Positions 36,587 to 64,000 of a stretch of DNA of 64,000 bases are shown one piece after another (the stretch's first letter is position 1; every line of letters starts with the position of its first letter). Source of the DNA: an uncultured Alphaproteobacteria bacterium (lineage in GTDB: Bacteria > Pseudomonadota > Alphaproteobacteria > GCA-2731375); assembly GCA_951812805.1 (NCBI GenBank), contig CATOSZ010000003.1, positions 1,814,557 through 1,878,556 of the forward strand, written 5' to 3'. The notes under the pieces are model-generated. The model did no database searches. It was not told the origin of the DNA and worked only from the letters and a program-made list of their open reading frames with translations. The position numbers and the translations under genes are program-made.

Positions 36587-37111
36587 GTAGACGCCCGGGT
36601 TCATCTTGAGCGTGCCGTCCTTCCGTACCTTGACGACGTCGTAGTCGCCCGGCGAAATCGTCTTGCTCTTGCCTTCGCCGACGGTGAAGTTCGACGAGCC
36701 GGCGGCCGGTGCCTGCGAGACGAACTGCGGCAGCACGGCGATGGCCGGGAGACTCAACGCGGAGCAGCTGGTGCCGCTGTTCACGTCGCTCAAGGTGTTA
36801 CAGAAGGCCGCGCTGTTGATCGTCGCGTCCTTCTCGATATCGATTGAATCGGCTTTCATTGCATAGCCGGACGGGGTCGAGGCCTTCTCATCGAGGTCCA
36901 GCGTACCGCCGGCGTCGTTGACGATGATGTTGCCGCTGTTCACCGAGGAATCGATGCCCAGGCTCGCGCTGCCCGTGGCGAACAGGACGGTATCGCCGAC
37001 TTGCGCCTCGGCCGCCCCCGTCGTGAACAGTCCCAGCGTCGCCGCAAGGGCGATCGCGCCGAAGGCTTTCGGCGATATCCAGTCGTTTGGCTTCATCCGA
37101 TTGATGGGCAT
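36587..37111 (-). pseudogene. Cadherin-like repeat surface protein, 5' part
   Basis: Start and first 175 codons of the split gene. ATG at 37111 follows AAGGAGG. A hydrophobic signal segment (KAFGAIALAATLGLFTTGAA) is followed by a likely cleavage site at AEAQ. Then comes a beta-rich region (GSASLGIDSSVNSGNIIVND, TISPGDYDVVKVRKDGTL) that reads into KMNPGVY and then the ISAs1 element. Removing the element and one GTAGACGCCC copy restores KMNPGVYNIRKFEALEN in frame with the part at 32269-35367. Read into the element, this part adds a short tail ending NCLDVRV. Confidence 0.88.
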
Positions 37112-41387: not shown

Positions 41388-42536
41388 ATGAATATCCTCA
41401 TCCTCGGTGGCGATGGTTACCTGGGTTGGCCCACGGCCATGCACTTCGCGGCACGGGGTCATAATGTCGTTGCGATTGACAACTACTTGAGGCGAACAAT
41501 TGCCAAAGAAACAGATTCCGAGCCCCTAATTTCAACGCCAGGCCTACCCGAACGTGCGGGCCTCTTTGAGGAGAAGTCAGGCCACAAGATCGAAACAAAG
41601 ATCGGAGACCTCTCCGATCCCGACGTTATGTTTGACATTGTTAAGCAATCTATGCCCGATGCGATTGTCCATTATGCGGAACAGCCTTCGGGGCCATATT
41701 CAATGAAAGCGTTCGATGAGGCCCGTCGAACGCTTCAAAATAACCTAGACGTTACTTTTAACTGTATATGGGCAATTAAGGAGAGTAACCCGGACTGCCA
41801 TCTGATTAAACTTGGCACCATGGGTGAATATGGCACGCCAAACATCGATATTGAAGAAGGTTATATAACTATAACCCACAACGGCCGAAAGCATCGATTT
41901 CTATTCCCGCGGGCGGCAAGCACGTTATATCATACCACCAAAGTTCTCGACACGGACCTTCTCTCGTTCTACGTACGTACATATGATCTGCGTGTGACGG
42001 ACTTGATGCAAGGCCCGGTTTACGGCCTTTCTACACCGGAAGCCGATCTCGACCCGCGACTTTGCCCCAATTTTCACTACGACGACATATTCGGGACTGT
42101 CGTAAATCGGTTTGTCGTACAAGCGATTGCCGGTGTTCCGTTGTCGGTCTATGGCAAGGGTGGACAGACAAGGGGGTACCTAAACCTGTTGGACACGCTG
42201 CAATGCATCGAGTTGGCGGTAAACGAACCCGCCAATCGTCAGCAACTGAGAATCCTCAATCAATTCACGGAAACATTCAGCGTTGTTGATCTTGCGCAGC
42301 AGGTGAAGTCCGCTGCAAAACAAATGGATATTGACGTCACTATCGAACATCAGGAAAATCCGAGAAAAGAAATGGAAGACCACTATTACAACCCCGTACA
42401 TACCGGCCTTACGAAACTTGGACTCAAACCAAATTATCTAAGCGACGATGTGCTGCTGGGTATGATGAAACGTGTCAAGGCTCACAAGGACAATATTGAT
42501 ACTCGCATTATCAATCCTCGTATCCGGTGGAGTTGA
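41388..42536 (+). CDS. sqdB: UDP-sulfoquinovose synthase homologue (SqdB/SQD1)
   Basis: An SDR-family enzyme predicted to make UDP-sulfoquinovose from UDP-glucose and sulfite. The 382-residue protein is strikingly like plant SQD1: GGDGYLGWPTAMHF (NAD fold), YAEQPSGPYSM, KLGTMGEYGTPNIDIEEGYI and YGKGGQTRGYL. Catalytic Thr144, Tyr181 and Lys185 align with SQD1 Thr145, Tyr182 and Lys186. The ATG at 41388 follows ACGGGGTC. No SqdX/SqdD sulfolipid glycosyltransferase is adjacent. Its place at the head of a capsule locus suggests sulfoquinovose, or a related sugar, in a glycan. Confidence 0.85.
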   Translation: MNILILGGDGYLGWPTAMHFAARGHNVVAIDNYLRRTIAKETDSEPLISTPGLPERAGLFEEKSGHKIETKIGDLSDPDVMFDIVKQSMPDAIVHYAEQPSGPYSMKAFDEARRTLQNNLDVTFNCIWAIKESNPDCHLIKLGTMGEYGTPNIDIEEGYITITHNGRKHRFLFPRAASTLYHTTKVLDTDLLSFYVRTYDLRVTDLMQGPVYGLSTPEADLDPRLCPNFHYDDIFGTVVNRFVVQAIAGVPLSVYGKGGQTRGYLNLLDTLQCIELAVNEPANRQQLRILNQFTETFSVVDLAQQVKSAAKQMDIDVTIEHQENPRKEMEDHYYNPVHTGLTKLGLKPNYLSDDVLLGMMKRVKAHKDNIDTRIINPRIRWS

Positions 42537-42539
42537 ACT

Positions 42540-43553
42540 TTGCGCGTCCATGATGTCTTCGAAGGATCTACTGTTGTTTTGACCGGATGCTGCGGAACGA
42601 TAGGTTCCGAGCTTGTTCGTCAACTTGCGACACTAGGATCGACGCGGGTTATTTGCCTCGACAACAACGAAACCGGCGTCTTCGAACTAAAAGAAACTTA
42701 TAAAGAAAACAATAATCTGGAGTTCTTTCTTGCCGACGTTCGGGACTACGACTCGCTTCGCATAAGAATGCAGGGAGCGGATTTTTGTATTCATACGGCC
42801 GCGCTAAAGCACGTAGGCCTTTGCGAAGATTCGCCTGAACAGGCCATTCAAACCAACATTCTGGGTACTCAGAACATTATCCGGTGTGCGACCGAAAGTG
42901 CGTTGCAGAAGGTCATTTTCACCTCCTCGGATAAGGCTGTGAACCCGACCAATGTCATGGGTGCATCGAAGCTAATGGCGGAAAAACTCATCACCGCCGC
43001 CAATTCCAGAAGCAACTCTCATGGCACGGTGTTTGCCACCACTCGATTTGGAAATGTTCTAAACTCCAGCGGCTCGGTGTTGCCGGTATTTAGAAAGCAA
43101 ATCAGCAACGGCTACCCCATAACCTTGACCGACGAACGGATGACCCGCTTCATAATGACGTTGAGTGAAGCAGCCGATCTCGTCATTAGGTCGGTTGAAT
43201 TGGCTCGGGGCGGCGAGATCTTTGTGATGAAGATGCCCGTTGCGCGCATTTCTGATATCGCCCATGTCATGCGTGATAAACTGGCGCCACCAGATGGGGT
43301 CGAAATCATCGAAGTCGGCAGTCGGCCGGGTGAAAAGCTTTTTGAAGGATTGCTGAGCGAAGAAGAAGTTCGACGGTCGTTCGAGATTGACCTGTTTTAT
43401 GTGATTATGCCGCCATTCATCTCGACCTTGAGTGGCTTGCATGATTACATCGATACTTCGCAGCAGATCACAAGAGCCTACACGTCTCGTGAGTCGACAG
43501 CACTGTCACGACAGGAATTACTGGCCTTCTTCGACAAGAATGGCCTATTTTGA
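42540..43553 (+). CDS. UDP-sugar 4,6-dehydratase of the PseB/FlaA1 type
   Basis: An extended SDR of 337 residues. The NAD motif is TGCCGTIGSELVRQL, and TAALKHVGLCE and FTSSDKAVNPTNVMGASK follow. As in PseB, CapE and WbpM-type enzymes, the Ser-Asp-Lys site and Met140-xxx-Lys144 replace the usual Tyr-xxx-Lys. A TTG start at 42540 behind GGTGGAG is just 3 bases after sqdB. Expected product: a 4-keto-6-deoxy UDP-GlcNAc derivative that feeds the aminotransferases of the locus. It lacks the membrane half of the large WbpM-like enzymes. Confidence 0.87.
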   Translation: MRVHDVFEGSTVVLTGCCGTIGSELVRQLATLGSTRVICLDNNETGVFELKETYKENNNLEFFLADVRDYDSLRIRMQGADFCIHTAALKHVGLCEDSPEQAIQTNILGTQNIIRCATESALQKVIFTSSDKAVNPTNVMGASKLMAEKLITAANSRSNSHGTVFATTRFGNVLNSSGSVLPVFRKQISNGYPITLTDERMTRFIMTLSEAADLVIRSVELARGGEIFVMKMPVARISDIAHVMRDKLAPPDGVEIIEVGSRPGEKLFEGLLSEEEVRRSFEIDLFYVIMPPFISTLSGLHDYIDTSQQITRAYTSRESTALSRQELLAFFDKNGLF

Positions 43554-43847: not shown

Positions 43848-45137
43848 ATGTCTCTCCTGCGTGACATCAGTGCTCTGATTTTTGGGGCCGGCATTGGACA
43901 GATATTGACCTTGGCGACGCTTCCGGTCATTACCCGCCTGTATTCGCCAGAAATGTTCGGCATTTTCGCTCTCGTATTTGCGGCATCGAGCACAGTCTCC
44001 GTTGCGACGACAGGTAGGTTCGAGCTCTCTCTCGGTCTGCCGGAAACGGAGGACGAAGCACGCACCGGCCTGTTTCTCTGTACTGTCTTGGCGGCGACTG
44101 GTGCCGTAGTCTTTGGGACTTGCATTGCCTTCGCCATTCAACCTCAAGTCGAGGCGGTGGCGGAAACGGCAACATCCTGGTTGGTTATGCTTGTGTGTGC
44201 ATTGATCTTTGCAACGTCGATGTCGCGAACACTGCAATTTTGGGCGCTGCGCGAGACACAGGCATCACTGATCGCGCGATCCAGGGTGGTCCAGGCCTTG
44301 GCGGCGGTTGCAGTGCAAATTGGCATAGGATATTTCTGGCCCGAGTATCTTGGACTCTTGATCGGCGTGCTTTTTGGTCAAATGGCTGCACTTGTATATC
44401 TTCTTCCAAGACGAAGTTTAAGGGAAATGACGGTAAAGGAGATCCGATCGCGGGCCCTCTATAGATACTGTCGCACACATAGGAAGTTCATATTCTTCAG
44501 CATGCCAGCGGCATTGGTAAATACAATAGCAACAGAAGGACGTATTTTTCTCGTATCTTTCTATTTTCCAGCTCATGTAGTTGGCTGGTTCGGTCTTGCG
44601 GTACGCGCTGTCGGCGCACCTGCGCAACTGATCGGCCAAGCGATAAATCAGGGGTTCCATGGGCATCTTTCGGAGGCAATTCGGGAGGCCAGGAAGGACC
44701 TGTTGAGAGTCGCTGTCGTCTCTCTTGCAATAACAACGGCATTTGCGACGCCGGTCGCCATTTTAGTCTACCTGTACGCTGAGCCATTGTTCATATTGAT
44801 CTTTGGTGAGCAATGGAAAGTTGCTGGTCAATATGCTTCTTTATTCGCTCTGGCGCTTGTATTTAGAACGGCAGCCATTTCTATCGGGAGTGGTTTGAGT
44901 ATAATCGATAAGCAGCAATATACACTGCTTTGGCAAACAGCATACTGCATAGCCTCCCTAACGCCGTTTGCGCTGGCCGAGTACATCGGCGGAATGCAAC
45001 AAGTCATATTCCTTTATGTTATTATCAGTATTTTCATGCATTGCCTGATTATATCTATAGTGATAATTATGGTCCGCGTGGCCCAGGGAAATAGTGAGTC
45101 GTCGTTATCTCGAAACAGTCCAACACCGCCTAGATAG
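43848..45137 (+). CDS. wzx: Wzx-type polysaccharide flippase
   Basis: A 429-residue integral membrane protein with about 12 hydrophobic helices. It begins MSLLRDISALIFGAGIGQIL, followed by the MOP/RfbX signature ITRLYSPEMFGIFALVFA. Expected function: to move lipid-linked repeat units across the inner membrane. ATG at 43848 follows ACGAGGAACC. A gap of about 295 bases before it holds no clear gene. The A/T-rich codon choice differs from the housekeeping genes. Confidence 0.88.
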   Translation: MSLLRDISALIFGAGIGQILTLATLPVITRLYSPEMFGIFALVFAASSTVSVATTGRFELSLGLPETEDEARTGLFLCTVLAATGAVVFGTCIAFAIQPQVEAVAETATSWLVMLVCALIFATSMSRTLQFWALRETQASLIARSRVVQALAAVAVQIGIGYFWPEYLGLLIGVLFGQMAALVYLLPRRSLREMTVKEIRSRALYRYCRTHRKFIFFSMPAALVNTIATEGRIFLVSFYFPAHVVGWFGLAVRAVGAPAQLIGQAINQGFHGHLSEAIREARKDLLRVAVVSLAITTAFATPVAILVYLYAEPLFILIFGEQWKVAGQYASLFALALVFRTAAISIGSGLSIIDKQQYTLLWQTAYCIASLTPFALAEYIGGMQQVIFLYVIISIFMHCLIISIVIIMVRVAQGNSESSLSRNSPTPPR

Positions 45138-45336: not shown

Positions 45337-46317
45337 ATGATGGGTAGCGACAAATTGCGAGTGATTTATGTTACCGGCTGTGGTGCCAGTGGATCCACGT
45401 TACTTGGCATGATGCTTGGCGCGCACTCTGAAATCCTGTCAATCGGAGAAGTCTTTCGATTGGCCAGGTACTACCGAGACGGACTGACCTGTACCTGTTC
45501 GGAGAAGGTTTCCGACTGTGAGCTCTGGGCGCCCGTATGGAGTAGGTTGGAATGGGATAAGCTCATCGATGTTGATAAAGACAGTGAAAGATTATTCCAG
45601 AGGTCTGCGGAGTCGAAGTACGAAGCCGAGGTTGTTCACCCACTAGCAGTCAGAAGATGGCGCGATGCGTTTTACAAGGCGTTTGTCTCGGAGAATCTGC
45701 CGACATTGCAGACCGAGCACTTGTTTTCTGCCTTGAATTTGGAAACAGGGAAGTCCATTTTTGTCGACACTTCGAAGGTTCTGCCGCGTCTTTGGTATTT
45801 GAACCGCAATCCAAATATCGAACTGACGGTCGTCTATCTCGTCCGAGACGGAAGGGCGTATATCAACAGTTTACGAAGGCCGCGCGACTTCGGCCGGTTT
45901 CCCGGGTTTTTGCGCTCTATCGTAGCCTGTGTTGCAAGTGCAGTTTGGGCGAATGAGTGGCGGCAGTCGCATGCGAATGTTTCCGCCATTGTTGACGCCG
46001 GCGAGTTGGAGCGCGTAGTCCGCATCCGATACGAAGAACTCGTTGCTGACCCTCGCAGCGCGTTGACCCCGCTATTCGACAGTCTGGGCTTGACTTATGA
46101 TGATGGGATCGTTGAATACTTCAAGGGCCGGTTTCATAATATCGCCGGCAGTCCCAGCCGTATATCCCTACGCCCCCTCTCGTTGGAAACGTCGTGGGTG
46201 AAGAGCCTCACGTGGTGGGATTATTTTGTTTTCAGATTGATTGCCGGACGGCGGAACGTTAGGTTTGGCTACGGATCTTTTTGCCCGGCCGATCCATTAC
46301 AGGAACAGCAATATTAG
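45337..46317 (+). CDS. Sulfotransferase
   Basis: Predicted PAPS-dependent sulfotransferase of 326 residues. The 5'-phosphosulfate loop is VTGCGASGSTLLGMMLGAH (about 12-30) and the 3'-phosphate site is VVYLVRDGRAYINSLRRP (about 165-182, VRDGR at 169-173). FVDTSKVLPRLWYL lies between. Overall it resembles the Sulfotransfer_3-type bacterial enzymes. ATG at 45337 follows GGGTAGG. It lies between the flippase and polymerase genes, so the likely acceptor is the repeat unit or polymer of this locus. The PAPS-making genes are not in the window. Confidence 0.82.
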   Translation: MMGSDKLRVIYVTGCGASGSTLLGMMLGAHSEILSIGEVFRLARYYRDGLTCTCSEKVSDCELWAPVWSRLEWDKLIDVDKDSERLFQRSAESKYEAEVVHPLAVRRWRDAFYKAFVSENLPTLQTEHLFSALNLETGKSIFVDTSKVLPRLWYLNRNPNIELTVVYLVRDGRAYINSLRRPRDFGRFPGFLRSIVACVASAVWANEWRQSHANVSAIVDAGELERVVRIRYEELVADPRSALTPLFDSLGLTYDDGIVEYFKGRFHNIAGSPSRISLRPLSLETSWVKSLTWWDYFVFRLIAGRRNVRFGYGSFCPADPLQEQQY

Positions 46318-46365: not shown

Positions 46366-47640
46366 ATGAACTTGGCTGTACGATCAGATCGAACGTTTCT
46401 GCAATGGTCGATTGTAGCCTTGTTGCTGTTTACCGGTTCAATTGTGAGGGAGGGTTCTATTTGGGGGCATCTAATAGTCATTTTTGCGGTTTTCGTTTTG
46501 TGCCTATGTTTAATGTGTGTTTCGACCAAGAGGCTTCCCAGGGAATGCTGGCGTAACGTTTTTATATTCTGGTCGGTTTTGTTCGCTATCCATCTTTATG
46601 GACTGTTGCTGACCGTCGCCGTTTCGGGCGCGACCCGAGAGGCACTTGTTTACATGGGGCGTTGGATCCCCCTGTATTTAATACCCATCATACCCCTGAT
46701 ATTTACGCAACGAAATGATTGGGTCTTTATCCTGAAAGCACTGGTGCTGGTGGGGCTTTTCCAAGCTGTATATACTGAATATTTTGTCCTTTCGGGTGGT
46801 TTGGCCTCCTATCGGGCCGTGGTCGAGGAATTCATCGACGTCGTTTATTTTTACGCATCGGTCGCAGTTGTGGCGACAGTTTTCATTGTGCCTATGAGAA
46901 AGCTATTTCGGTTGGCCCTCATAGTGATCTTAGTGATATTTTTGTTCCGAATGGGTTTGGAAGTTAGTCGGACGCAGTTCGGTGGATTCTTGCTTGCCGT
47001 GGGCTGGGCCCTATTGTTCAAAGTGTGCCACGACTGGGGTTGGCGGAAGAGAATTGCCTGGTTTGCCACGCTGATGGTAGTGGGAGTCGTGGGAATTCTA
47101 ATGTTTCAAGCGTTCCTCATTGGTACAGGCGAAGAGCCATATATAGAGCGACTATTTCGACGATTTGATGCGACAGGCGGTTCAATTACCTACCGTTGGA
47201 CAGAACTTTCTTACGGCTGGGCATATGGCGGAGTCTTCGGAGACGGCTGGGGTACAAGTCGAGATTTCGGTGCAGCGGTCGTTTATACGAAAGCATCAAA
47301 AGCTTTGTATGTCAAACCGTATATCCACAATATATTAGCCTATTTTGGCTGGAAGCTCGGTGTTGTCGGCGTCATTCTGGCAATTGCGGTTTTCGTTTTT
47401 GTCATGATATGTATCGCAGTCAGTTTTAGGGCCGCCGATCGTTTGGGTACTGTCGTCTCATGCTGCCTCATTGTATGGTTGTTCCACAGTAGTTGGGGAC
47501 TGGTTTATTTGAGGTTTGACATGTCGATTTGGTTCGCGGTCCTGATATGTTACTTTTTGGTTGTTTACGGAAACAAGGGGCGCTTGATGATTTGGCGGGG
47601 ACAGTATCGAGAGAATGTTCGTCGGGAGATAATAGCTTGA
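46366..47640 (+). CDS. wzy: Wzy-like polysaccharide polymerase (O-antigen ligase fold)
   Basis: A 424-residue membrane protein with about 10-12 hydrophobic helices and a large loop near residues 245-310 (GEEPYIERLFRRFDATGGSI, YRWTELSYGWAYGGVFGDGW). This loop pattern occurs in the Wzy_C/O-antigen ligase superfamily. Expected role: periplasmic polymerisation of repeat units delivered by the flippase. ATG at 46366. The stop codon overlaps the TTG of the next glycosyltransferase gene by 4 bases. Sequence divergence in this family makes the distinction between ligase and polymerase tentative. Confidence 0.78.
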   Translation: MNLAVRSDRTFLQWSIVALLLFTGSIVREGSIWGHLIVIFAVFVLCLCLMCVSTKRLPRECWRNVFIFWSVLFAIHLYGLLLTVAVSGATREALVYMGRWIPLYLIPIIPLIFTQRNDWVFILKALVLVGLFQAVYTEYFVLSGGLASYRAVVEEFIDVVYFYASVAVVATVFIVPMRKLFRLALIVILVIFLFRMGLEVSRTQFGGFLLAVGWALLFKVCHDWGWRKRIAWFATLMVVGVVGILMFQAFLIGTGEEPYIERLFRRFDATGGSITYRWTELSYGWAYGGVFGDGWGTSRDFGAAVVYTKASKALYVKPYIHNILAYFGWKLGVVGVILAIAVFVFVMICIAVSFRAADRLGTVVSCCLIVWLFHSSWGLVYLRFDMSIWFAVLICYFLVVYGNKGRLMIWRGQYRENVRREIIA

Positions 47641-48890
47641 AACCGACGAGTGGTACTTTCGAGGGGCCGTCGGCGGACCTGAACGTGAATAGGCCGAGTA
47701 TCGCATTTTTATTCTGGGGTGAAACCCTGATGCCGCGACACGAGGTCATGATAGAAACGCTTAGCCGTAAGGGACATCGCGTCGATGTGTTGGCGTGGCG
47801 ACGCAGCACTGAGGGTTCCTTTCCAACCCGTAAGGATTGGATATACATCACGGCGCGCGCGTCTGTGGGCCGAAAATCTACCGTTTTTGGTTTGCCTTTA
47901 ATGCTTCTTCGGTTTTGTCGGGCGTTGCGGTTGCTGCGTCAGGACGGCGGGGGGGATGTTCTGGTAATTACACATCTTTTGCAAATGCCAGTCTCGTTCC
48001 GACAGAACCGTGCTCTCCTGTACGATAGTATTGATCTGTTTTCGGTTGAGATGTCGTTGCACTTTCGTTCTCTCGGGCCGTACGTTTGTCGGGCCCTAGA
48101 AGTTGTCGAGGGTGTTCTATTAAGGCGGTTCGATGGTATTTGGGCCGTCGATTCCCGCAACGACACGGTATTGAAACGGCTACAAAAGTCCTGCCCCAAT
48201 ACCCAGGCCATATGGAACGTACCGTCGCTCTGTCAGGGGCCGAGTCCAGAGTCACGAGCCGCGGCTCGACGGTTCGTGGGCGACAAGTTCACAATTGTAT
48301 ATACGGGGACAATTATGTACGATAAGGGCGTCGACATTGTCGCCCGAGCGATCGCCCGTTTGCGGGATCGCGTCGATGATTTGCAGTTGGTCCTCATCGG
48401 TAATATGTGGGAGGATAGATCGGTGTTTGAAGGACGTTTGGCAGTACTCGGTATTCTGGATCGGGTTCGCGTCGTGGACAGAATCGACTACAATGCCATG
48501 TTGTCCTACCTTGAGTGCTGTCACGTGGCAGTTGCATTGTATAAGGAAACGCGACAGTACGTGGGGCTATCAGCAGGGAATAGCCGTAAAATTTTCACCT
48601 ATATGCAGGCTGGTTTGCCGATTATAGGACCGAGTTTCGGGGAAATCGGTGATATGGTGCGCCGCGTCGGGTGCGGCGTGTTGGTGGATCCGCAAGATGT
48701 GGATGGTGTCGCCGACGCCATTGAGACGATGTGGCGTAATGAAGAGGATCGTGTCGCCATGGCACAAACTGGCCGGGAGGCGTTTCAGACCCGCTATAAT
48801 TGGGAGACGGAAGAGGTGAAGTTTCTTCAGGTCTTCGAGCGAGCGCTGTCGTCGCGGCGCCGGGAAACGAGCCCGGAAGGGGGGAGATAG
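47637..48890 (+). CDS. Family 4-type glycosyltransferase
   Basis: A GT-B glycosyltransferase of 417 residues. The N-terminal half has [19 protein letters not shown]. The C-terminal half has the donor-site pattern [37 protein letters not shown] and [22 protein letters not shown] at 47637 (behind GGGAG) overlaps the polymerase stop; the first ATG is about 31 codons later and would truncate the fold. It lies at the start of a run of overlapping genes. Donor and acceptor unknown. Confidence 0.83.
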
Positions 48891-49543
48891 TGTTGGAAGA
48901 CCATTTGCAGATGGTGCGGGAGCTCGATAGCAGTTGTATTATTCAACCTGGTGCAGTGGTCGGATTGCGTTACCGAGTTGATGCGCATCCGGCGATTATC
49001 GGTCCGAGATCGACGGTTCGAAGCGGTGCTATAATCTACGCCGATGTACAGATCGGCACCGATTTTGTTTCTGGACATAACGTGCTGATCCGAGAGAAAA
49101 CGATCATCGGAGACAGGGTGGTGGTGGGAACCAACGGTGTCATCGAAGGGCAATGCCGGATTGGCAGCTTCGTCAAGATCGAGTCGAACTGTTTTGTTCC
49201 GACCCACACCAAGATCGGTGATGGTGTCTTCCTGGGTCCCAATGTCGTACTCACCAACGACAGGTATCCCTTGAGGCGGCGTAGTGAATATAAGCCCGCC
49301 GGCCCGATCGTCGAGGACGACGTCACAATCGGCGCCGGGGCGGTTATTTGTCCGGGGGTCACGATTGGTTGCAGGTCCTTCATAGCCGCAGGTGCCGTCG
49401 TGACGAGTGATGTTCCCGCCGGCTCTCTCGTCGTCGGCGTGCCGGCTCGATCGCGGCCTTTGCCGGAGTATCTCGACGAGCCCAACATGGCCCTTTCGTG
49501 GATCGACAAGGATGGTCGGAATTTGAGGACTGGCAGGACATGA
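48890..49543 (+). CDS. Left-handed beta-helix N-acetyltransferase
   Basis: A hexapeptide-repeat acyltransferase of about 217 residues (LbH fold). Successive hexapeptides are seen in [31 protein letters not shown] and [20 protein letters not shown]. The His/Asn-type active site is likely near [12 protein letters not shown]. The layout resembles WbpD/WlbB enzymes that N-acetylate 3-amino sugars. GTG at 48890 or TTG at 48893 behind AAGGGGGGAG. It overlaps both neighbours and sits next to a Gfo/Idh oxidoreductase and a DegT aminotransferase, the same trio as in that pathway. Confidence 0.82.
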
Positions 49544-50547
49544 AGATAGCCATATTGGGCTGCGGAAAACAGGGCGCCAAGCACGTTGAAGGATTGCGTG
49601 CCGTCGGGGATACCGAACTTGTCCTGTATGATAGAGACGTTGCGTTCTCGCGTGCACTTGGTGAACAGACGGGTTTGCCCTGGGTGGCGGAACTCGATGA
49701 GGTGCTATCGGATCCGACGGTGATTGCGGTCGACGTCGCGACACCGACGCCGTCACACGCGGAGCTCCTTACCCTGGCGATCGCGGCGGGGAAGCACTTT
49801 TTTTGTGAGAAGCCGCTCTGTCTGTCCAGTGCGGAGGCGGGGGAAATTCAGCGTTTTTCGCGAGAACGCGGCTGTGTTGGTATGGTGGGGTACATCTACC
49901 GGTTTTCTCCCGTCTTCGCCGAGATCGATCGATTGCTGCAAAGAAGCGTGCCCGAAGTACGTAGTCCCGCAATCGGACGCGTCAATTCGGCCATTTTGCG
50001 CCTTGGTGGCCGTGGATCTCACCAAGCCTGGAAACACAACCTGTCGACCGGCGGGGGGGCACTCAATGAGATGATGGTTCACATGGTCGATCTGGCGCTC
50101 TGGTATTTTGGTGCAGCAGCGGAAGCCTCCCTTGTCCGCAACGAATTGTTGCGTCCCGTGCGAACTATCGCCGGCGAGGCCGTGGAAGCGGATGCCCCCG
50201 ATTACTGTGTCGCTTTACTGCGCAGCGTCACGGGTGTCGAGATTTTGATCCAGTCCGATCTACTGACGCCTTCTTTTTCGCAGTTCGTCGAGATTCAGGG
50301 TGATAATGGTAGTATATTGGCGTCGATTCAGGATACCGTTACTTCTTATGTCTTCTGCATCGAAGAGGCTGGAGGGTTCCAGCAGGGACGGACCGAAATG
50401 CAGTTCGGAAAACGGAATCTCTTCCATACGCAAATGATGGAATTTGTGACTGCGATACGTGAAAAGCGTGAGCCCCACGGAAACAGTATCGCGGATTCGT
50501 TGACGTTGTTACGTACCTTGGAGAAGCTTGAGGAAAAAATACCATGA
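49540..50547 (+). CDS. Gfo/Idh/MocA-type nucleotide-sugar oxidoreductase
   Basis: A 335-residue NAD(P)-dependent enzyme. The Rossmann start is [19 protein letters not shown], the catalytic-Lys motif is [11 protein letters not shown], and the second domain has [20 protein letters not shown]. The ATG overlaps the acetyltransferase stop (ATGA). By position it may do the 3-oxidation that prepares a sugar for the downstream aminotransferase, as WbpB/WlbA does, but the sequence alone does not define the substrate. Confidence 0.8.
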
Positions 50548-51659
50548 CCAAAACGATCCCCATTAGCGATGTCACGTTGACCGAAAGTGAAATCTCTGCG
50601 GCGGTCGAGGTTCTTCGTTCGGGCAACCTACGGCAGGGCAAGAAATGTCAGGCCTTTGAAGCTGAGTTTGCCGAGGCGGTTGGCGCTGCTCATGCAGTTA
50701 GTTGTGCCAACGGCAGTGCTGCGCTTCATCTGGCATATGCCGCCGTTTTGGAGCCGGGCGATGAGATACTGGTACCGGATTTTACTTTCATAGCAACAGC
50801 CAGCATGGCTTCTCTTACCGGTGTGACCCCCGTCTTCTGTGATGTCGATCTCGACAGTTTTCACATAGACCTTACAGACGCCGAGAGTAAGGTTAGTGAT
50901 CGAACCAAGGCCATCGCTCCGGTGCATCTTTTCGGGAATGTCGTCGATTTGGAGGCAGTACACGCCTTCGCTGATCGTCACGACCTTTTCGTGATTTGGG
51001 ATGGGGCTCAATCTCACGGAGCGCTCTACAAGGGTCGGCCGATTGGCGGCGAAAAGGACTTTGTCACTTATTCTTTCTATCCGTCGAAGAACATGTATGT
51101 CGGCGAAGGTGGCATGGTGTGTACCGAGAGCAAAGACATGGCGGAGCGGTTACGGTTACTCAGAAGCCACGGAGCGTCGGGAAAGTATGTGCATACTGTG
51201 ATCGGCTTCAATTACCGCATGACGGACATCGAAGCATCCATTGGCCGAGAACAATTGAAGCGCCTCGATTCTATGATCGAAGTGCGTCGGCGCAACGCAC
51301 AGATCTATGATGAAACGCTTTCCGGTATCGCGGGCCTGCGGTTACCGAAGGTCGACCCAAATGTTTCGCATAGTTATCATCAATATTGCATTTGTATTGA
51401 GTCCGATAATGCGCACGTCTCCCGAGATATGATGGAGGATGCCTTGCGGCAGAATCAAATCCAGTGCGGCATCCATTATCCACGTGGTTTGCATCAACAG
51501 CCGGTCTATCAAGGCCTGAATCGCTATAATGGTTATCCGAATTCCGAACGTTTGGCGCGGGAGATTCTGGCAATTCCCGTGCACCATGGACTTGAAGAAC
51601 AGGATGTTCATACGGTCTCGTCGGTTATCCGAAGCCTTTTCGAAAAGGCTGGAGCGTAG
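50544..51659 (+). CDS. DegT/DnrJ/EryC1 sugar aminotransferase (first copy)
   Basis: A PLP enzyme of 371 residues. Motifs are SGNLRQGKKCQAFE, VSCANGSAALHLAYAA, VIWDGAQSHGA and the PLP-Lys segment FYPSKNMYVGEGGM. ATGA overlap with the upstream oxidoreductase. Likely adds an amino group to a keto-sugar nucleotide made by the oxidoreductase or the 4,6-dehydratase. The neighbouring acetyltransferase would then N-acetylate the product. Confidence 0.87.
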   Translation: MTKTIPISDVTLTESEISAAVEVLRSGNLRQGKKCQAFEAEFAEAVGAAHAVSCANGSAALHLAYAAVLEPGDEILVPDFTFIATASMASLTGVTPVFCDVDLDSFHIDLTDAESKVSDRTKAIAPVHLFGNVVDLEAVHAFADRHDLFVIWDGAQSHGALYKGRPIGGEKDFVTYSFYPSKNMYVGEGGMVCTESKDMAERLRLLRSHGASGKYVHTVIGFNYRMTDIEASIGREQLKRLDSMIEVRRRNAQIYDETLSGIAGLRLPKVDPNVSHSYHQYCICIESDNAHVSRDMMEDALRQNQIQCGIHYPRGLHQQPVYQGLNRYNGYPNSERLAREILAIPVHHGLEEQDVHTVSSVIRSLFEKAGA

Positions 51660-51685
51660 CTTAGGAAACCGGGAGTTTTTTGGCA

Positions 51686-53815
51686 ATGGGAAATTTGCGA
51701 GGTGCTCCGCGAGACAATGTCGGAGTGGGAATCGTCGGTTGTGGGAATATCGCGGTAAAGCATCTCGAGGCATTCGCAAATATTTACAGAGACTGCCGCA
51801 TCGTTTGCTGCGACTTGTCAGCGACCAAAGCCCGGTTTTTGGCGGAGAGGAATAATCTCGACGGCTGGTATACCTCGGTGGACGAAATGCTCGAGGACTT
51901 CCATCCGGGCCGCGTCCATCTCACAATGCCCCCTGTGCGGCGGGTGGAGATGGTGGAGAAGTTGCTGCGGGCAGGAGTCGATATTTATGTCGAGAAACCG
52001 TTTGCCGCTTCGGGTGATGAGGCCGGACGCATTCTAGAACTCGCTGCTGAAACTGGGCGCGTTGTTGTGCCCGGGCATTGTTTCAACAGCGATGACAGGG
52101 TGGTGGCGCTCCGGCGGGATCTAGCGGCAGGACGGATTGGCGACGTAATCGGGATGGAGATACGTGAGTCCTTTATATATGATCCCGCGGCAGGGAGTAA
52201 CAAGGATTGGATGAATGCCCTGCCAGGGCAGATGATTTCTGATCTGTTGCCCCATTATTTGACATTAGCAACGGCGGCCGTAGGGAAGGTGCACCTATCA
52301 CATGTAGAAGTCTCACGGGATGATTCCGGTCGGGCCGTGGGCGTTCTCCTTGTTCTTTGGGCAATTGAACCAGGTTCGGAGAAAGCCGTCGTCACGGTTA
52401 ATCTTGATTTCCGCGATAAACTCGGGGAGCGAAGCGTCGATGTCAGGGGTACGGACGGAAGGATCTGGATCAATTTTCTGGCCAACACCATGACCTGCCG
52501 AAGGACCAGGGCTTTGCCGGGTCCAGTCGAGGCTATTCTTTTGGAAGCCCAGCAGGGCCTCATTTCTATATTCTCCCTTACCGGAAGCGTTTTGAGTAAG
52601 ATGTTTCGTACAGGTAACAGTTACCAGCTTCTGCACAATGCCGTCAGAGACTTCCATTACGGTCTCGACGATGGGGAAAGAAAGTTTTCCGATCCGGAGA
52701 TCACGCATAATATCTACAAAGTGCTGGATAGATTCGCTGCTAAGTTTGAGTCGACGACGGCTTCCGTCAATTTGATAAAGGCGTGTCCGGCCATACCGGG
52801 AACCGTGGCGCAAAGCAGCGAAGGGCGGGGGGTCGTTGCGGTCACAGGCGCGTCGGGCTTCCTTGGCCGCGCTGTTATCGATGTCCTCTCGGACCTGGGT
52901 TTGGACGTGAGGATCCTGACGACCCGCGCCGACTATCGGTTGCCGGCAGATATTTCTACGCCTGAACGGTTCCAGATTCTTCCCACCGACTATGCGCAGC
53001 CGGAACAGCTGCAGCAACAGTTGCACGGTGTCGACACGGTAGTACACATGGCTGCGGCGACTGCCGGGAACCTCATGGATCATATTCAAGGGACGGTAGG
53101 TTCAACCGAAGCTATTCTCGCTGCGCTCGACAACAATCCTAACATCAAGGCACTGGTGTACGTCAGCTCGTTGAGCGTGCTCGACGCCAGCCAGGTTGGC
53201 GAACGGACGTTCGTTGACGAAACATTTCCATTGGAGTCCCACCCTTCGCGCCGTGGGGCCTACGCCCAAGCTAAGCAACTTGCGGAGGAACGGGTCCAGG
53301 AATGGCTGAGTGGCTCATGCCGAGATATCCGCGTTTCCATCGTTCGACCGGGCGTGATCTATAGCGAGGGACGGAATCCACTTCAGTTGATTAAGTTGTT
53401 TTCACGCAGGAAATGCGCATACGTCGTGGGTCCCTCAGGGCGGCGGTATCCGTTCGTGCACCGCGACAATGTTGCCAGCCTGATTGGCCATCTCATCGAA
53501 CAAGGCGGCGCAGGAATATTTAACGTCGTTGATGAAGTTCGTCCATCTCTGAGCGACATCAAACGTTTTTTGGACGCTCAGACCAGTGCGCCGGTGGGAA
53601 TTGCCGTTCTTCCTCCCGTGTTGCTCCGCAGTTTGTTCCCACTGTTGAATCTCGCCGGAAGGATGTTCATCGGTCGCGAGCATCATGTCAGTTATAAGCT
53701 CAGGACGCAGTTGGCGAGTGGCCAGTTTGGGGCCGGCGCCTTGGCGAGTCTCTCCTGGACGCCACCTCGGCGTGACAGTCAGATCTTTTACACGAGTCTG
53801 TTGAGCAACACCTGA
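51686..53815 (+). CDS. Fusion of a Gfo/Idh oxidoreductase and an extended SDR
   Basis: A two-enzyme protein of about 709 residues. Residues about 1-370 form a Gfo/Idh/MocA unit with GIVGCGNIAVKHLEAF, YVEKPFAASGDE and GHCFNSDDR. A linker ends near SSEGRG. Residues about 388-700 are an extended SDR with VAVTGASGFLGRAVIDVL, YVSSLSVLDA, YAQAKQLAEE (YxxxK) and a SIVRPGVIYSEG motif. The ATG at 51686 is 10 bases after GGGAG; TTG at 51680 is an alternative. The whole frame is continuous with no sign of a sequencing join. Two successive redox or epimerase steps on one nucleotide sugar are likely. Confidence 0.83.
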   Translation: MGNLRGAPRDNVGVGIVGCGNIAVKHLEAFANIYRDCRIVCCDLSATKARFLAERNNLDGWYTSVDEMLEDFHPGRVHLTMPPVRRVEMVEKLLRAGVDIYVEKPFAASGDEAGRILELAAETGRVVVPGHCFNSDDRVVALRRDLAAGRIGDVIGMEIRESFIYDPAAGSNKDWMNALPGQMISDLLPHYLTLATAAVGKVHLSHVEVSRDDSGRAVGVLLVLWAIEPGSEKAVVTVNLDFRDKLGERSVDVRGTDGRIWINFLANTMTCRRTRALPGPVEAILLEAQQGLISIFSLTGSVLSKMFRTGNSYQLLHNAVRDFHYGLDDGERKFSDPEITHNIYKVLDRFAAKFESTTASVNLIKACPAIPGTVAQSSEGRGVVAVTGASGFLGRAVIDVLSDLGLDVRILTTRADYRLPADISTPERFQILPTDYAQPEQLQQQLHGVDTVVHMAAATAGNLMDHIQGTVGSTEAILAALDNNPNIKALVYVSSLSVLDASQVGERTFVDETFPLESHPSRRGAYAQAKQLAEERVQEWLSGSCRDIRVSIVRPGVIYSEGRNPLQLIKLFSRRKCAYVVGPSGRRYPFVHRDNVASLIGHLIEQGGAGIFNVVDEVRPSLSDIKRFLDAQTSAPVGIAVLPPVLLRSLFPLLNLAGRMFIGREHHVSYKLRTQLASGQFGAGALASLSWTPPRRDSQIFYTSLLSNT

Positions 53816-53859: not shown

Positions 53860-55047
53860 ATGGGCTTTTGGGATAGTGCTCTCATCGGCGCACTGGCGGC
53901 CTCGGTCCTGCTGGTGTGTTACGTTTACGGCGGCTATCTCGTGATGCTATGGATCCTCCACCGGTGCTTCGGCAAGGGTGGCCGTGACGTTTCGACGCGG
54001 CCCGACGATACGGTTGCGCCGCCGAGGATCACGGTCATCGTTGCCGCGTACAACGAAGAAGCTCGCATTGCCCGTCGCTTGCAGAACTTTTTGGACTGCA
54101 ATTATCCCGCCGAACGGCTCGAGATAATCATCGCACTCGATGGCGGCGACGACCGCACGCAAGAGATCGTCGAGGGTTTCAACGACACGCGAATATCCTG
54201 TTTGTCGTCGACCGAGAGGACTGGGAAAAGCGGCGCCCAGAATGCGGCGGCGGCGGCGGCTGGCGGCGAGATCCTCCTTTTTACGGACGCTGACACGGAG
54301 TTCGCGGTCGATTTTCTCGACCGCATCGTCGAACCCTTCGAGGATTCGCGTGTCGGTCTGGTCGATGGTCGGCTCTTCTTCGGCTATCCGGGTGGGAGCG
54401 ACGTGGCGGTATCGCAAGGTTTTTATTGGCGAATGGAACTGGCCCAGCGGGACCTCGAAAGCCGCCTCGGGATCTTGGCGGTTGCCTCGGGCGCGTGCCT
54501 GGCCCTTCGCGCAAGTCTCTACGAGGGGTTGCCTTTACAATATGGTGATGATTGCATATTACCACTCCAAGTGACCCGGCATGGGCACGAAGTTCGCCAC
54601 CATCCTCTCGCACAGGCGCACGACATCGGTGCTCCGGATTTCGAGGCCGAGTTTGCAAGCCGGGTCCGCATGACGCTTCGCAACTGGGGGGGGACGTGGA
54701 GCATGGCAGAAATGCTGAATCCTCTGCGTCACCCGGGTGTTTCCTTCGGGTTGTGGTCTCACAAGATACTCCGCTGGCTCTCCCCGGTTTTCCTCGCCGG
54801 TATATTCGTGTTTGCGCATTTTTTGTTTTTCCAGGGACATACTCTGGGCTACATAGTAGCGATCGTGGCGGATGGGCTGCTTGCCTGGACAGTGATTTGC
54901 GTCTTGGCGTTTCGTTTGTCCGTCAGACTTCCGATGCAAAATATTCTAATTGGCTTTGCCGTGGCCAACTCAGCATTTATGATTGGTGTCGCGAAGGGCG
55001 TCTTAGGACAAAAGATGAAACAGTATAGCAAAGGGGCGTCCAGGTGA
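53860..55047 (+). CDS. Membrane family 2 glycosyltransferase
   Basis: A 395-residue processive-looking GT2. An N-terminal helix (LIGALAASVLLVCYVYGGYL) precedes the GT-A domain: ITVIVAAYNEEARIARRL, IIALDGGDDRTQ and the DxD in LLFTDADTEF. A QYGDDCILPLQ acceptor motif is present, and about three C-terminal helices end the protein. ATG at 53860 follows GTGGAGG. It may add one sugar to the lipid-linked unit on the cytoplasmic face. A cellulose-type synthase is less likely, as there is no c-di-GMP-binding PilZ domain. Confidence 0.84.
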   Translation: MGFWDSALIGALAASVLLVCYVYGGYLVMLWILHRCFGKGGRDVSTRPDDTVAPPRITVIVAAYNEEARIARRLQNFLDCNYPAERLEIIIALDGGDDRTQEIVEGFNDTRISCLSSTERTGKSGAQNAAAAAAGGEILLFTDADTEFAVDFLDRIVEPFEDSRVGLVDGRLFFGYPGGSDVAVSQGFYWRMELAQRDLESRLGILAVASGACLALRASLYEGLPLQYGDDCILPLQVTRHGHEVRHHPLAQAHDIGAPDFEAEFASRVRMTLRNWGGTWSMAEMLNPLRHPGVSFGLWSHKILRWLSPVFLAGIFVFAHFLFFQGHTLGYIVAIVADGLLAWTVICVLAFRLSVRLPMQNILIGFAVANSAFMIGVAKGVLGQKMKQYSKGASR

Positions 55048-55742
55048 TGGCAGACGAAGAAGAAAGAATACGCCGTGTCTACCAGAAACGGGACGCCGAA
55101 GGCAAGAACAACCTATACGCGTGGAACCAACCCGATGTACTGTATTCCCAGTTTTCTTTCCAGCGTGGGATGGTCAGGGCCCTGACGGGGTCCGGGATCA
55201 CGAACCTGGCCGAGCTCGAAATCCTCGATGTGGGTTGTGGCTCGGGCGCCTGGCTGCGCACCCTCGCCGACTGGCGTGGCAGTATCAACGGCTTACATGG
55301 CATCGATTTGCTCGAGGACCGGATTAATCTTGCACGAGAACTCAATCCTGCGCTCGACGTTACGCTCGGAAATGGAGAGCGGCTTCCTTTCGACGACGCG
55401 CAATTCGACTTGGTGACCGCCAAAGTCGTTTTTGCAACAATTCTGGACGATGAGATCAGACGTTCCGTCGCCGATGATATCGGACGGGTGGCCAAGCCGG
55501 ACGGTCGAGTGGTGATATTTGATTTTGTGGTATCGAACCCGAGGAATCCGGACGTACGAAAATTCGGCCTCGGCGATGTCCGAAAGGCGTTCCCCGAATG
55601 GCATTGCGATGTCTATAGGCTCCACCTGGCCCCGCCCATTGCCCGTATCATTTGTCGCATCTCTCCATCCATCGCGCACGCAATGGAAGTTGTCCTGCCC
55701 TTCCTGCGATCTCACGCCATCTATGTTTTGCGTCGGCAGTAG
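55047..55742 (+). CDS. SAM-dependent methyltransferase
   Basis: A class I methyltransferase of 231 residues. Motif I is LEILDVGCGSGAWLRTLADW, the acidic end of strand 2 is GIDLLEDRI, and strand 4 is FDLVTAKVVFATI. ATG at 55047 (or GTG at 55044) overlaps the glycosyltransferase stop. It probably methylates a sugar or the non-reducing end of the glycan; end methylation can limit chain length. The C-terminus has a hydrophobic patch (ICRISPSIAHAMEVVLPF) that may sit at the membrane. Confidence 0.8.
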   Translation: MADEEERIRRVYQKRDAEGKNNLYAWNQPDVLYSQFSFQRGMVRALTGSGITNLAELEILDVGCGSGAWLRTLADWRGSINGLHGIDLLEDRINLARELNPALDVTLGNGERLPFDDAQFDLVTAKVVFATILDDEIRRSVADDIGRVAKPDGRVVIFDFVVSNPRNPDVRKFGLGDVRKAFPEWHCDVYRLHLAPPIARIICRISPSIAHAMEVVLPFLRSHAIYVLRRQ

Positions 55743-55752
55743 GAGTTGGAGC

Positions 55753-56925
55753 ATGACCAACAGGCAACCGATCCCCTTCGCCCGCCCGGAAATCGGAGAA
55801 GCTGAAATTGCGGAGGTCGTCGACACGTTGCGCAGTGGCTGGTTGACATCCGGGCCAAAGGTAAAGCTATTCGAGGAGAAGTTTTCCGGCCTCTATCACT
55901 CGAAAGTCGGTGCTGTTGCCGTGTCATCCGCAACGGCCGGGTTGCATTTGGCTCTCGAGGCCTGCGGTATCGGTCCAGGAGATGAGGTTATCGTACCGAC
56001 CTTTACGTTCACCGCGACCGCGGAAGTCGTTGCCTATCTACATGCCGACCCTGTCTTCGTCGATGTCGATCCGTCGAGTCTAAATATCCGTTCTGAAGAT
56101 ATGGAGCCGGTCATAAGCGAGCGAACCAAGGCCGTCATTGTCGTTCATTACGGCGGCTTGTCTTGTGATATGGCGCCAATTATCAAACTGGCCAGAAAGC
56201 ATGGGCTGTCGGTCATAGAGGATGCCGCGCATGCTCTGCCTGCCCGATATGGTGAAAGTTTGATCGGTGAGTTGGCCAGTGATGTGACGGTCTTCAGCTT
56301 CTATGCCAACAAGACAATGACCACAGGCGAAGGAGGAATGATCGTCAGTCGAGATGACGAACTTCTGGCCCGCTGCCGCGTCATGCGCCTCCATGGCATC
56401 AGCAAAGATGTGTTTGATCGCTACAATCGACCCGATAAGACCAATTGGTACTACGAGGTGGTCGCGCCGGGCTACAAGTACAATATGATGGATATGGCGG
56501 CGGCCGTTGGTATCCATCAACTCGATAGGATTTACGACTTTCGGGCCCGCCGGGATGCCGTTGCGGAGGTTTACAATAAGGCGTTCGCTTCACTGGACCT
56601 ACAACTGCCCGCGCTGCCGGAGATCCGTGAATCCCATGCGTGGCATCTTTATCCTGTACGCCTTGGTGACGACTTCGGTATGACGCGCGATGAATTCATT
56701 ACGGAAATGACAAATCAACGCATCGGAACCAGCGTTCATTTCATCCCTCTTCACTTTCAGCCCGTGTGGAAGGAACGATACGATCTCGACGCCACAAACT
56801 TTCCCGTCGCAACCGACGCCTATGAGCGGATCGTCAGTCTTCCCATCTTTTCGGCGATGTCCCACACGGAAGCGGAAGTTGTTGTAGACGTGGTGACGCG
56901 CCTGTCTACCGGGAGGCGCTCTTGA
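55753..56925 (+). CDS. DegT/DnrJ/EryC1 sugar aminotransferase (second copy)
   Basis: A 390-residue PLP aminotransferase. It begins RQPIPFARPEIGEAEIAEV and contains TLRSGWLTSGPKVKLFEEKF, VIEDAAHALPARY, the Lys segment FYANKTMTTGEGGM and GYKYNMMDMAAAVG. These resemble PglE/PseC-type 4-aminotransferases that act on 4-keto-6-deoxy sugars. ATG at 55753 follows AGGAGTTGGAG. The stop overlaps the TTG of the phosphoglycosyl transferase gene, a common pairing in loci that start with a bacillosamine-type sugar. Confidence 0.87.
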   Translation: MTNRQPIPFARPEIGEAEIAEVVDTLRSGWLTSGPKVKLFEEKFSGLYHSKVGAVAVSSATAGLHLALEACGIGPGDEVIVPTFTFTATAEVVAYLHADPVFVDVDPSSLNIRSEDMEPVISERTKAVIVVHYGGLSCDMAPIIKLARKHGLSVIEDAAHALPARYGESLIGELASDVTVFSFYANKTMTTGEGGMIVSRDDELLARCRVMRLHGISKDVFDRYNRPDKTNWYYEVVAPGYKYNMMDMAAAVGIHQLDRIYDFRARRDAVAEVYNKAFASLDLQLPALPEIRESHAWHLYPVRLGDDFGMTRDEFITEMTNQRIGTSVHFIPLHFQPVWKERYDLDATNFPVATDAYERIVSLPIFSAMSHTEAEVVVDVVTRLSTGRRS

Positions 56926-57536
56926 CCGCAAAGCGTTTTCTGGATCTCGTCGGCGCGATCTGTGGTCTGTCGATCCTTGCGATACCATTTTTAGTTATTG
57001 CGTTGGCGATCCGTTTGGATACCAAAGGGCCTGTGTTTTTTCGCCAAGTACGTATTGGTAAAAACGGTAAACCCTTTCGCATCATGAAGTTCCGAACCAT
57101 GATCGTCGACGCGGAGCGTATAGGTGGCAGCCTGACCAAGGGGCGCGATGCCCGCATTACGGCGATAGGACACATTCTTCGGAAATTGAAGTTAGACGAG
57201 TTTCCTCAACTTTGGAACGTTTTGCTTGGTGAGATGAGTTTGGTGGGGCCACGGCCGGAAGTCCCGGAATTTGTGGCGGAGTATTCTGCGGAGCAGATGG
57301 AGGTTCTCGAGTTCAAACCAGGAATCACGGATCCATCTTCCATAGAATACGTAGACGAGGAAAGATATCTCGGCAGCTTAGAAGATCCTCGGCAGTATTA
57401 CATCGATGTCTTGCTCCCGAGAAAATTGAAGATCAATCTGGCGTATTCCCGGGAGGCAAATATCTGCAAAGACGTTTGTGTAATATTGATGACGTTGCTG
57501 CGCATCGTTAATTTTGCAAAACGTCGACAATGTTGA
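56922..57536 (+). CDS. Small monotopic phosphoglycosyl transferase (PglC/PssY-like)
   Basis: Begins repeat-unit synthesis by moving a sugar-1-phosphate to undecaprenyl phosphate. It has 204 residues, the compact form: one re-entrant N-terminal helix (FLDLVGAICGLSILAIPFLV), then FFRQVRIGKNGKPFRIMKFR, RKLKLDEFPQLWNVLLGEMS and LVGPRPEVPEF. The start is TTG at 56922 within TTGA, overlapping the aminotransferase stop. The preferred sugar may be the amino sugar made by its operon partner. Confidence 0.9.
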   Translation: MTAKRFLDLVGAICGLSILAIPFLVIALAIRLDTKGPVFFRQVRIGKNGKPFRIMKFRTMIVDAERIGGSLTKGRDARITAIGHILRKLKLDEFPQLWNVLLGEMSLVGPRPEVPEFVAEYSAEQMEVLEFKPGITDPSSIEYVDEERYLGSLEDPRQYYIDVLLPRKLKINLAYSREANICKDVCVILMTLLRIVNFAKRRQC

Positions 57537-57668: not shown

Positions 57669-58616
57669 ATGGCGGATGAATTGAAAATGAAAGACTCACC
57701 TCGTCCAACTGGGGATGAACTCCTGAGCGTTACTGATGTCTTGAACCGATTGCTTGAAAAGAAGATTTGGGTCGCAACCTCGATTATTGTTTGTGCAGTT
57801 CTTGCTTTGGCGTACTTGAATGTGGCTACATATAAGCATACCATATCCCTAAAGGTCGTCGCGGTGAAGGCGAATCTGGAGAGCAAAGTATCTGGCCTAA
57901 ATGCTCTAAAGAATTTCACTGGACTTGGTTTGTCGATTTCCGATTCGGACCACCGATTGGAGTTGTTTCTAGACCAAATCAAGGAGCGCCAGACAACGAC
58001 GATGCTTTCTTCCGACAAAGAGATTATGACCCGTATTTTTTCGAAGGAGTGGAACCCCGAGACCAAGGAATGGCAAGATCCCGGGGGCCTCGGGTCTCTG
58101 ATTCGTTTTATAAATAGTGTGGTGTTCGCGAAGCCGAATGCAGGATGGACGCCGCCTGACGCAGCGAGGCTTCAGGACTTCATTTTGGGCCGAATTAAGG
58201 TGATCAGGGATACTCATACGCCAATTGTCAACATACAGATGCTGTTCAGTGACCCAGGCTTCGGAAAGTATTTTCTTTCGAAACTTTATAGAGCTGCCGA
58301 TAGTGCAATACGGGAGCGTGCGCTGCTCCGTAGTAAACAAAATGTGTCACACCTGACAAAGCGCCTTTTGGACATCTCGATGGTCGAATATCGAGAGTCA
58401 ATATTCGGAATGCTCGCGCTCGAGGAGAATGCAGTCATGCTGGCAAGTTCCGACTTGCCGTTCGCGGCGGAACCGTTGGGGCAGCCCGTCGCTTCCGCAG
58501 ACTACGACGCGCCAAAGCCGATTTTGGTTATGATTGTGGCCATCATTCTGGGCGCGACGATCGGTGCATTCGCCGTATTGCTCAGATTCGGCCTGCGCAA
58601 CTCACGTGTTCAATGA
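57669..58616 (+). CDS. Wzz-like chain-length determinant protein
   Basis: A 315-residue inner-membrane protein with a helix near residues 36-54 (VATSIIVCAVLALAYL) and another near 285-307 (ILVMIVAIILGATIGAFAVL). Between them lies a periplasmic, mostly helical domain. This is the Wzz/PCP layout, and LSVTDVLNRLLEKKIWV before the first helix is typical. There is no tyrosine-kinase domain, so it differs from Wzc. ATG at 57669 follows GGAGGAGG. A 132-base non-coding gap lies upstream. Confidence 0.78.
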   Translation: MADELKMKDSPRPTGDELLSVTDVLNRLLEKKIWVATSIIVCAVLALAYLNVATYKHTISLKVVAVKANLESKVSGLNALKNFTGLGLSISDSDHRLELFLDQIKERQTTTMLSSDKEIMTRIFSKEWNPETKEWQDPGGLGSLIRFINSVVFAKPNAGWTPPDAARLQDFILGRIKVIRDTHTPIVNIQMLFSDPGFGKYFLSKLYRAADSAIRERALLRSKQNVSHLTKRLLDISMVEYRESIFGMLALEENAVMLASSDLPFAAEPLGQPVASADYDAPKPILVMIVAIILGATIGAFAVLLRFGLRNSRVQ

Positions 58617-63196: not shown

Positions 63197-64000
63197 TCAA
63201 TCAAGAAATCTTGGCCAGCTCCTCGCGATCGAATTGAATTGGCCATCGGCAGTTACGTCGTAAAGTCTCGGGCCAACTTCCACCATTTGCCCGCCGTCAA
63301 CAGTCAATGGGCGGAAACCAACATTCCAACGCTGTCGTGAGGGACGGGGTAGGATGAGATCCAAGGGGATCGACATGAAGAATCCTTTGTCGAAGCTCCC
63401 TTCTCCGAAGTCCTCGGCTGAGACATTCGTGCGGGTGAAGAAGCCACCGACTATAATTCCGCTCTTGAATCGTCGGGCCAACCGCATGGTCGCGCCTCGA
63501 TCGCCGGCCAGGTAGCGACCGACATGGATCGAGCCTTCGAGATCTAAAAACGGGAATTGATAATAAAGGCCGAGATGTCCTGTGGTTACCTCGTAATCTT
63601 GGAAGCCGAACTGCTGTTCGAACTCCCGTTGGCGGACATGATTCACGTCCAGACCGATCGCCCAACGAGCATTCTGGCGCCGGTAAAGAACTTCGCCGCC
63701 GACACCACCGAACATTCGTTCGAAATATCCGGCCGAAAGGCGAGCGTAGATATTCTTCGCCGGCGAGAAAATATAGTCACCTTGCAGGCGGACCAAGGGG
63801 AGCTCGCTGTTCCGAAGGTACCGTGCGATGTTAGAGCGAACCGGTTCCAGATTGGGCCTGGGGCCACGTTGCAGCTGATCGAAGGTATCGACGATTCTTC
63901 GTTCGAGTTGGCCGCGGAGTTTGAGGCCGGGTAGGAACTCGACACTTCCCGACAACCGCGCCGACAATTGGAACGTATAAGGGGCATCGGGGTCGCCAAC
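63197..64000 (-). CDS. yjbH: YjbH-like exopolysaccharide outer-membrane protein (partial)
   Basis: The C-terminal 267 residues of a protein whose start lies beyond the right edge; the frame is open to 64000. It is made of alternating beta strands typical of the YjbH/GfcD barrel: YIFSPAKNIYARLSAGYFER, the MFGGVGGEVLYR turn, RWAIGLDVNHVRQREFEQQF, and MSIPLDLILPRPSR. It ends NVGFRPLTVDGGQMVEVGPR, LYDV. YjbH proteins belong to exopolysaccharide export systems, so it probably belongs to the locus at 41-60 kb, from which mobile DNA now separates it. Confidence 0.82.
   Translation of the reverse strand, partial: VGDPDAPYTFQLSARLSGSVEFLPGLKLRGQLERRIVDTFDQLQRGPRPNLEPVRSNIARYLRNSELPLVRLQGDYIFSPAKNIYARLSAGYFERMFGGVGGEVLYRRQNARWAIGLDVNHVRQREFEQQFGFQDYEVTTGHLGLYYQFPFLDLEGSIHVGRYLAGDRGATMRLARRFKSGIIVGGFFTRTNVSAEDFGEGSFDKGFFMSIPLDLILPRPSRQRWNVGFRPLTVDGGQMVEVGPRLYDVTADGQFNSIARSWPRFLD

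Follow-up and report, generated by a model that had tools for sequence, protein, structure and literature searches.

An Arg101-lacking SQD1 subfamily and its dehydratase partner in bacterial polysaccharide loci: a putative route to a sulfonated surface sugar

What does a homologue of plant UDP-sulfoquinovose synthase (SQD1) do at the head of a bacterial polysaccharide locus, and which sugar does it make? The question is raised by an intact open reading frame at 41388-42536 (plus strand, ATG start, 382 aa) in the window, the 64,000-nucleotide stretch of an alphaproteobacterial contig analysed here. A genome search identified this gene as the sole SQD1 homologue of the 7.4 Mb genome, and a promoter scan at its head revealed nothing above chance.

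Identity and relationships of the SQD1-like product

A phmmer comparison matched residues 3-381 of the product to plant SQD1 (1QRR, 1I24) with E ~1e-113 and 46% identity (174/379). The close match to plant SQD1 described in a first-pass annotation of this DNA is therefore full-length, although "closely" is relative, as plant SQD1 shares 66% identity with an Alicyclobacillus homologue (L115). The three catalytic residues that were also claimed are indeed kept, T145, Y182 and K186 of SQD1 corresponding to T144, Y181 and K185, together with the NAD motif and the equivalents of SQD1 H95, M145, E147 and Y148. This claim requires one qualification: the site of SQD1/Agl3 Arg101 is occupied by Pro100, and in Agl3 this arginine is essential, the R101A mutant being inactive (PMC4388408). 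The product furthermore scored 429.7 bits against the NCBIfam model for UDP-sulfoquinovose synthase (NF041015), under its curated cut-off of 575. Judged from its sequence, it is SQD1-like in fold, homology and catalytic triad, but falls outside ordinary UDP-sulfoquinovose synthases on two counts, the model cut-off and Arg101.

To place this change, 102 different SQD1-family proteins were gathered from one plant, whole genomes, plasmids and the best-matching 80 loci of GTDB genomes, and a tree was reconstructed from 100 of them with the Arg/Pro trait column taken out. The 75 proteins without Arg101 (74 Pro, 1 Ala) formed a single "P-type" clade (ultrafast bootstrap 99, SH-aLRT 96), such that loss of Arg101 corresponds to one state change on the 100-protein tree. 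All rows outside this clade keep the arginine (R-type), including plant SQD1 and alphaproteobacterial SqdB encoded beside SqdD and SqdC. Within the P-type clade, the window product belongs to a subclade of 45 members from several phyla (support 100/100), hereafter the pair subclade, which carries further changes at SQD1 N208 (to Met), V211 (to Pro) and in the helix region after the catalytic Tyr. These positions are presumed, from the general fold, to line the sugar pocket. On these sequence grounds the product is assigned to a distinct bacterial subfamily and not to ordinary SqdB.

By tree path, the window product is closest to homologues from Woeseiaceae and from Nitrococcus (67% identity to that of Nitrococcus), and homologues from its own family reach ~51%; with its nearest relatives outside its own family, the gene looks horizontally transferred. 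SQD1 relatives are also carried by viral contigs of IMG/VR (L126-L205), where 152 were identified, 79 of them typed at the Arg101 site (40 Pro, 39 Arg), whereas the phage records searched held none.

The polysaccharide island and the destination of the sugar

The gene stands at the head of a low-GC polysaccharide island of the Wzx/Wzy type (GC 0.53 over ~41-60 kb of the window versus 0.67 in its first 37 kb). The following features were assigned in the island and beyond its right edge.

41388..42536, plus: P-type SQD1-like NAD-dependent UDP-sugar synthase (phmmer to 1QRR/1I24; triad; Pro100; tree)
42540..43553, plus: PseB/PglF-like short UDP-HexNAc 4,6-dehydratase, S-D-K ... M-x3-K (PF02719, 310 bits; pairing; motif)
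43848..45137, plus: Wzx-type flippase (PF13440; 9 hydrophobic segments)
45337..46317, plus: PAPS-dependent sulfotransferase (Sulfotransfer_3, PF13469, 53 bits), which probably O-sulfates the glycan
46366..47640, plus: candidate Wzy polymerase, 424 aa (~10 hydrophobic segments and position; no Pfam match)
47529..48890, plus: GT4 glycosyltransferase (PF13692/PF00534), true start probably further in
48800..49543, plus: hexapeptide-repeat (PglD/NeuD-like) acetyltransferase
49498..50547, plus: GFO/IDH/MocA oxidoreductase
50544..51659, plus: DegT/PseC-like sugar aminotransferase (PF01041, 381 bits)
51680..53815, plus: GFO/IDH/MocA oxidoreductase fused to an SDR epimerase
53860..55047, plus: GT2 glycosyltransferase (PF00535)
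55044..55742, plus: SAM methyltransferase
55723..56925, plus: second DegT aminotransferase, start uncertain (PF01041, 406 bits)
56922..57536, plus: PglC/WcaJ-type initiating phosphoglycosyltransferase (Bac_transf, PF02397, 190 bits)
57669..58616, plus: Wzz-like protein (two terminal hydrophobic segments; no family match)
63197..63967, minus: YjbH-type exopolysaccharide protein, truncated where the window ends (PF06082, 315 bits; 912 aa in L123)

The Wzx/Wzy system reported beside the gene was thus borne out, with flippase, candidate polymerase, initiating transferase and glycosyltransferases (GT2, GT4) found together and Wzy recognised by topology only. An IS66 copy follows the island at its right edge. 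Beyond the YjbH gene, outside the window, an EpsE-like export protein of 1205 aa is encoded together with CysNC and CysD (L123, 4520-11147), and IS66 copies flank both sides of this region. Upstream of the island, a transposase-like ORF (35393-36499, minus strand) lies between a large ORF with cadherin-like repeats (32269-35391) and an ORF that resembles secreted proteins (36545-37111). Elsewhere, the locus of an R-type SqdB relative (L033) has GT2, methyltransferase, DegT and PglC-type genes in common with the window.

As the first-pass annotation had proposed, use of the sugar product in a surface glycan is favoured over use in a sulfolipid. The search for sulfolipid glycosyltransferase genes elsewhere, which that annotation had called for, returned no match to SqdD and no close SqdX-like gene in the genome (best match 27% identity), both searches being run without a positive control genome. 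Most neighbour proteins are sugar enzymes or glycosyltransferases, Wzx being found as well, and close relatives in other phyla are likewise placed among glycosyltransferases. Membership of the SQD1 family, and the capacity of polysaccharide islands to contain stray genes, might still be read as signs of a sulfolipid (SQDG) enzyme whose lipid glycosyltransferase is encoded elsewhere in the genome. Given the SqdD and SqdX results, and the different part of the tree occupied by R-type relatives with SqdD/SqdC or GT4 partners, this reading is very improbable and was set aside. The analogy drawn with Agl3 of Sulfolobus acidocaldarius, which makes sulfoquinovose for N-glycans (PMC4388408), holds for the destination of the sugar, presumably a glycan and not a lipid, better than for the active site, where Agl3 has Arg101 in place of proline; the window gene further differs in serving a bacterial Wzx/Wzy polymer and in having a dehydratase partner.

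A dehydratase partner and the proposed pathway

No lipid glycosyltransferase gene adjoins the window gene, which has a PseB/PglF-like partner located 4 bp downstream. The partner contains PF02719 with both the [ST]-D-K and [YM]-x3-K motifs (compared with the table in PMC8987622), and its nearest solved structures are Pen (6BWC), FlaA1 (2GN4) and an FnlA-type enzyme, followed by CapE, with PglF also among the best solved relatives. It shares PF02719 and the [ST]-D-K couple with the PseB/FlaA1, PglF/WbpM, CapE/FnlA and Pen enzymes, and M-x3-K with PglF/WbpM, but, unlike these, it is a short soluble protein whose gene is linked to one for an SQD1-like enzyme.

This association is a property of the pair subclade. 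A PseB-like gene (>230 bits to that of the window) was found within 1.3 kb of SQD1 at 38 of 45 pair-subclade loci compared with 0 of 56 others, in loci read with a codon-usage gene caller that still missed some genes (L105, L118). The called pairs on the same strand number 36, with the partner upstream in 32 and downstream in 4, mostly overlapping or separated by less than 70 bp. Cultured species that carry the pair include Desulfatibacillum alkenivorans (L062) and Histidinibacterium aquaticum (L060). The seven exceptions include partners at 2.2, 2.9 and ~8 kb, one contig end, and two loci with none within ~10 kb. No other neighbour is frequent in these loci, the next family occurring in seven, and a third SDR, GalE/RmlB-like, is present in ~18 loci. 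The Asp-Lys dehydratase couple is kept in 42/42 partners and, as in PglF/WbpM, Met replaces the catalytic Tyr in all but one (L050). Outside the subclade, more distant long forms of PF02719 (38-41% identity) occur ~2 kb from SQD1 in L027, L029 and L032, and the R-type locus L033 has a PF02719 gene at 0.9 kb (37% identity, 191 bits).

Two further arrangements were observed among P-type genes. Six loci (L026, L030, L031, L072, L093, L096) lack a PseB-like partner, several of them near NeuB/NeuC/PseF-like nonulosonate genes; in L025 and L042, SQD1 adjoins KpsF-like, CoA-ligase-like and TauE-like transporter genes (names from reading the sequences).

We propose, with a probability of about 0.58, that the P-type SQD1 and its PseB/PglF-like partner make a nucleotide-activated 6-deoxy-6-sulfo sugar for the repeat unit of the Wzx/Wzy polymer. 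As in SQD1/Agl3, NAD+ would oxidise C4 of a UDP-hexose, water would be lost across C5-C6, sulfite would be added at C6 and C4 would be reduced back, after which the sulfonated sugar would enter the repeat unit of the surface polysaccharide. Beyond the gene content described above, we infer sulfite use by the P-type enzyme, a joint pathway with the partner, the identity of the product and its incorporation into the polymer. Given its conserved substitutions and the UDP-HexNAc-dehydratase character of its partner, the enzyme probably acts on something other than plain UDP-glucose, such as UDP-GlcNAc or an intermediate that the partner supplies. The product may accordingly differ from sulfoquinovose, a sulfonated HexNAc being plausible; with Arg101, N208 and V211 replaced by Pro, Met and Pro and a PseB/PglF-like enzyme alongside, the earlier naming of the sugar as sulfoquinovose is not established.

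In an alternative reading, the enzyme is a plain UDP-sulfoquinovose synthase acting on UDP-glucose and the partner makes another sugar (such as a precursor of QuiNAc, FucNAc or bacillosamine) that enters the same polymer. In favour of this, the enzyme retains every other catalytic residue, E147 and Y148 among them, the aminotransferases and PglD-like acetyltransferase of the window could take the 4-keto product of the partner, and R-type SqdB is likewise encountered in polysaccharide loci (L033, L019). Conversely, the two genes stay together in several phyla amid otherwise variable loci, which would be unusual for two unrelated donors, and the changes at SQD1 positions 101, 208 and 211 are conserved. 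We therefore consider a plain synthase unlikely, though it deserves more weight than any other alternative to the proposed two-enzyme pathway.

Sulfur supply and broader meaning

Agl3 requires Arg101, so the enzyme described here, which lacks it, could have lost the reaction with sulfite. It would then be a dehydratase yielding a 5,6-ene or 4-keto sugar for an amino/deoxy sugar pathway with the partner (compare Pen/Pal), and sulfur would enter the polymer only as a sulfate ester through the sulfotransferase. Agl3 forms UDP-Glc-5,6-ene when sulfite is withheld (PMC4388408), a precedent for such a product. Canonical PAPS reductase was not found in this genome (a PF01507 search gave CysD and two weak matches) and a PF01077 search for sulfite reductase was empty, at an estimated completeness of 98.5%; CysD/CysNC and a sulfotransferase would be enough for O-sulfation. 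The CysD and CysNC genes (L123, 8308-11147, outside the window) adjoin polysaccharide export genes between IS66 copies. With no CysH or sulfite reductase found in the genome, they are apparently a dedicated PAPS supply; they may serve the sulfotransferase, and since the window also holds that enzyme they cannot be credited to sulfite alone.

Set against this loss of sulfite addition are the PAPS-reductase genes that adjoin P-type SQD1 in other genomes (L045, L047, L051, L060, L087, L151). In the first four, all pair-subclade loci, SQD1 and a PAPS-reductase-family gene are one to three genes apart, and in L051 the latter is preceded by a bifunctional Sat/APS kinase gene; the L047 and L051 proteins score above the Pfam PAPS_reduct cut-off and below that of NCBIfam. 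The gene also flanks P-type SQD1 in L087 and in viral L151, where it (2426-2980) stands immediately before SQD1; on an exopolysaccharide plasmid from Pelagovum, such a gene flanks R-type SqdB. Four such neighbours in 45 loci compares with ~0.1 expected by random placement (P ~1e-5), under a rough null that assumes two such genes per 4000 and ignores both relatedness and any overall tendency of sulfur genes to cluster with glycan loci. A sulfite gene nearby is absent from most pair-subclade loci. In L031, L044 and L064, P-type SQD1 has genes for APS kinase or CysD/CysN in its vicinity, which could equally serve sulfotransferases. Taken together, the PAPS-reductase genes beside the pair in four relatives suggest sulfite chemistry, and a dehydratase that has abandoned sulfite addition appears improbable, more so than a plain synthase.

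The more specific form of the sulfonated-sugar proposal, that a two-enzyme pathway widespread in bacterial phyla makes a hitherto unrecognised amino sugar bearing a sulfonate (for instance UDP-6-sulfo-QuiNAc or one of its epimers) for surface polysaccharides, fed in some loci by dedicated PAPS-reductase genes, is offered tentatively, with the odds against it. We found no direct precedent in the openly available literature for a bacterial polysaccharide with sulfoquinovose, nor for sulfoquinovosamine, and a 2026 sulfoquinovose review names phototroph lipids and archaeal N-glycans as settings of the sugar (PMC12890257).

These results suggest that many bacteria may place an unrecognised sulfonated sugar in their surface polysaccharides, and that automatic annotation of P-type genes as UDP-sulfoquinovose synthase may mistake the substrate. 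If the subfamily does make sulfonated sugars, paired SQD1/PseB-like loci would predict strains in which to test for them, and organosulfonates would have a source in many non-photosynthetic bacteria, with relevance to the sulfur cycle.
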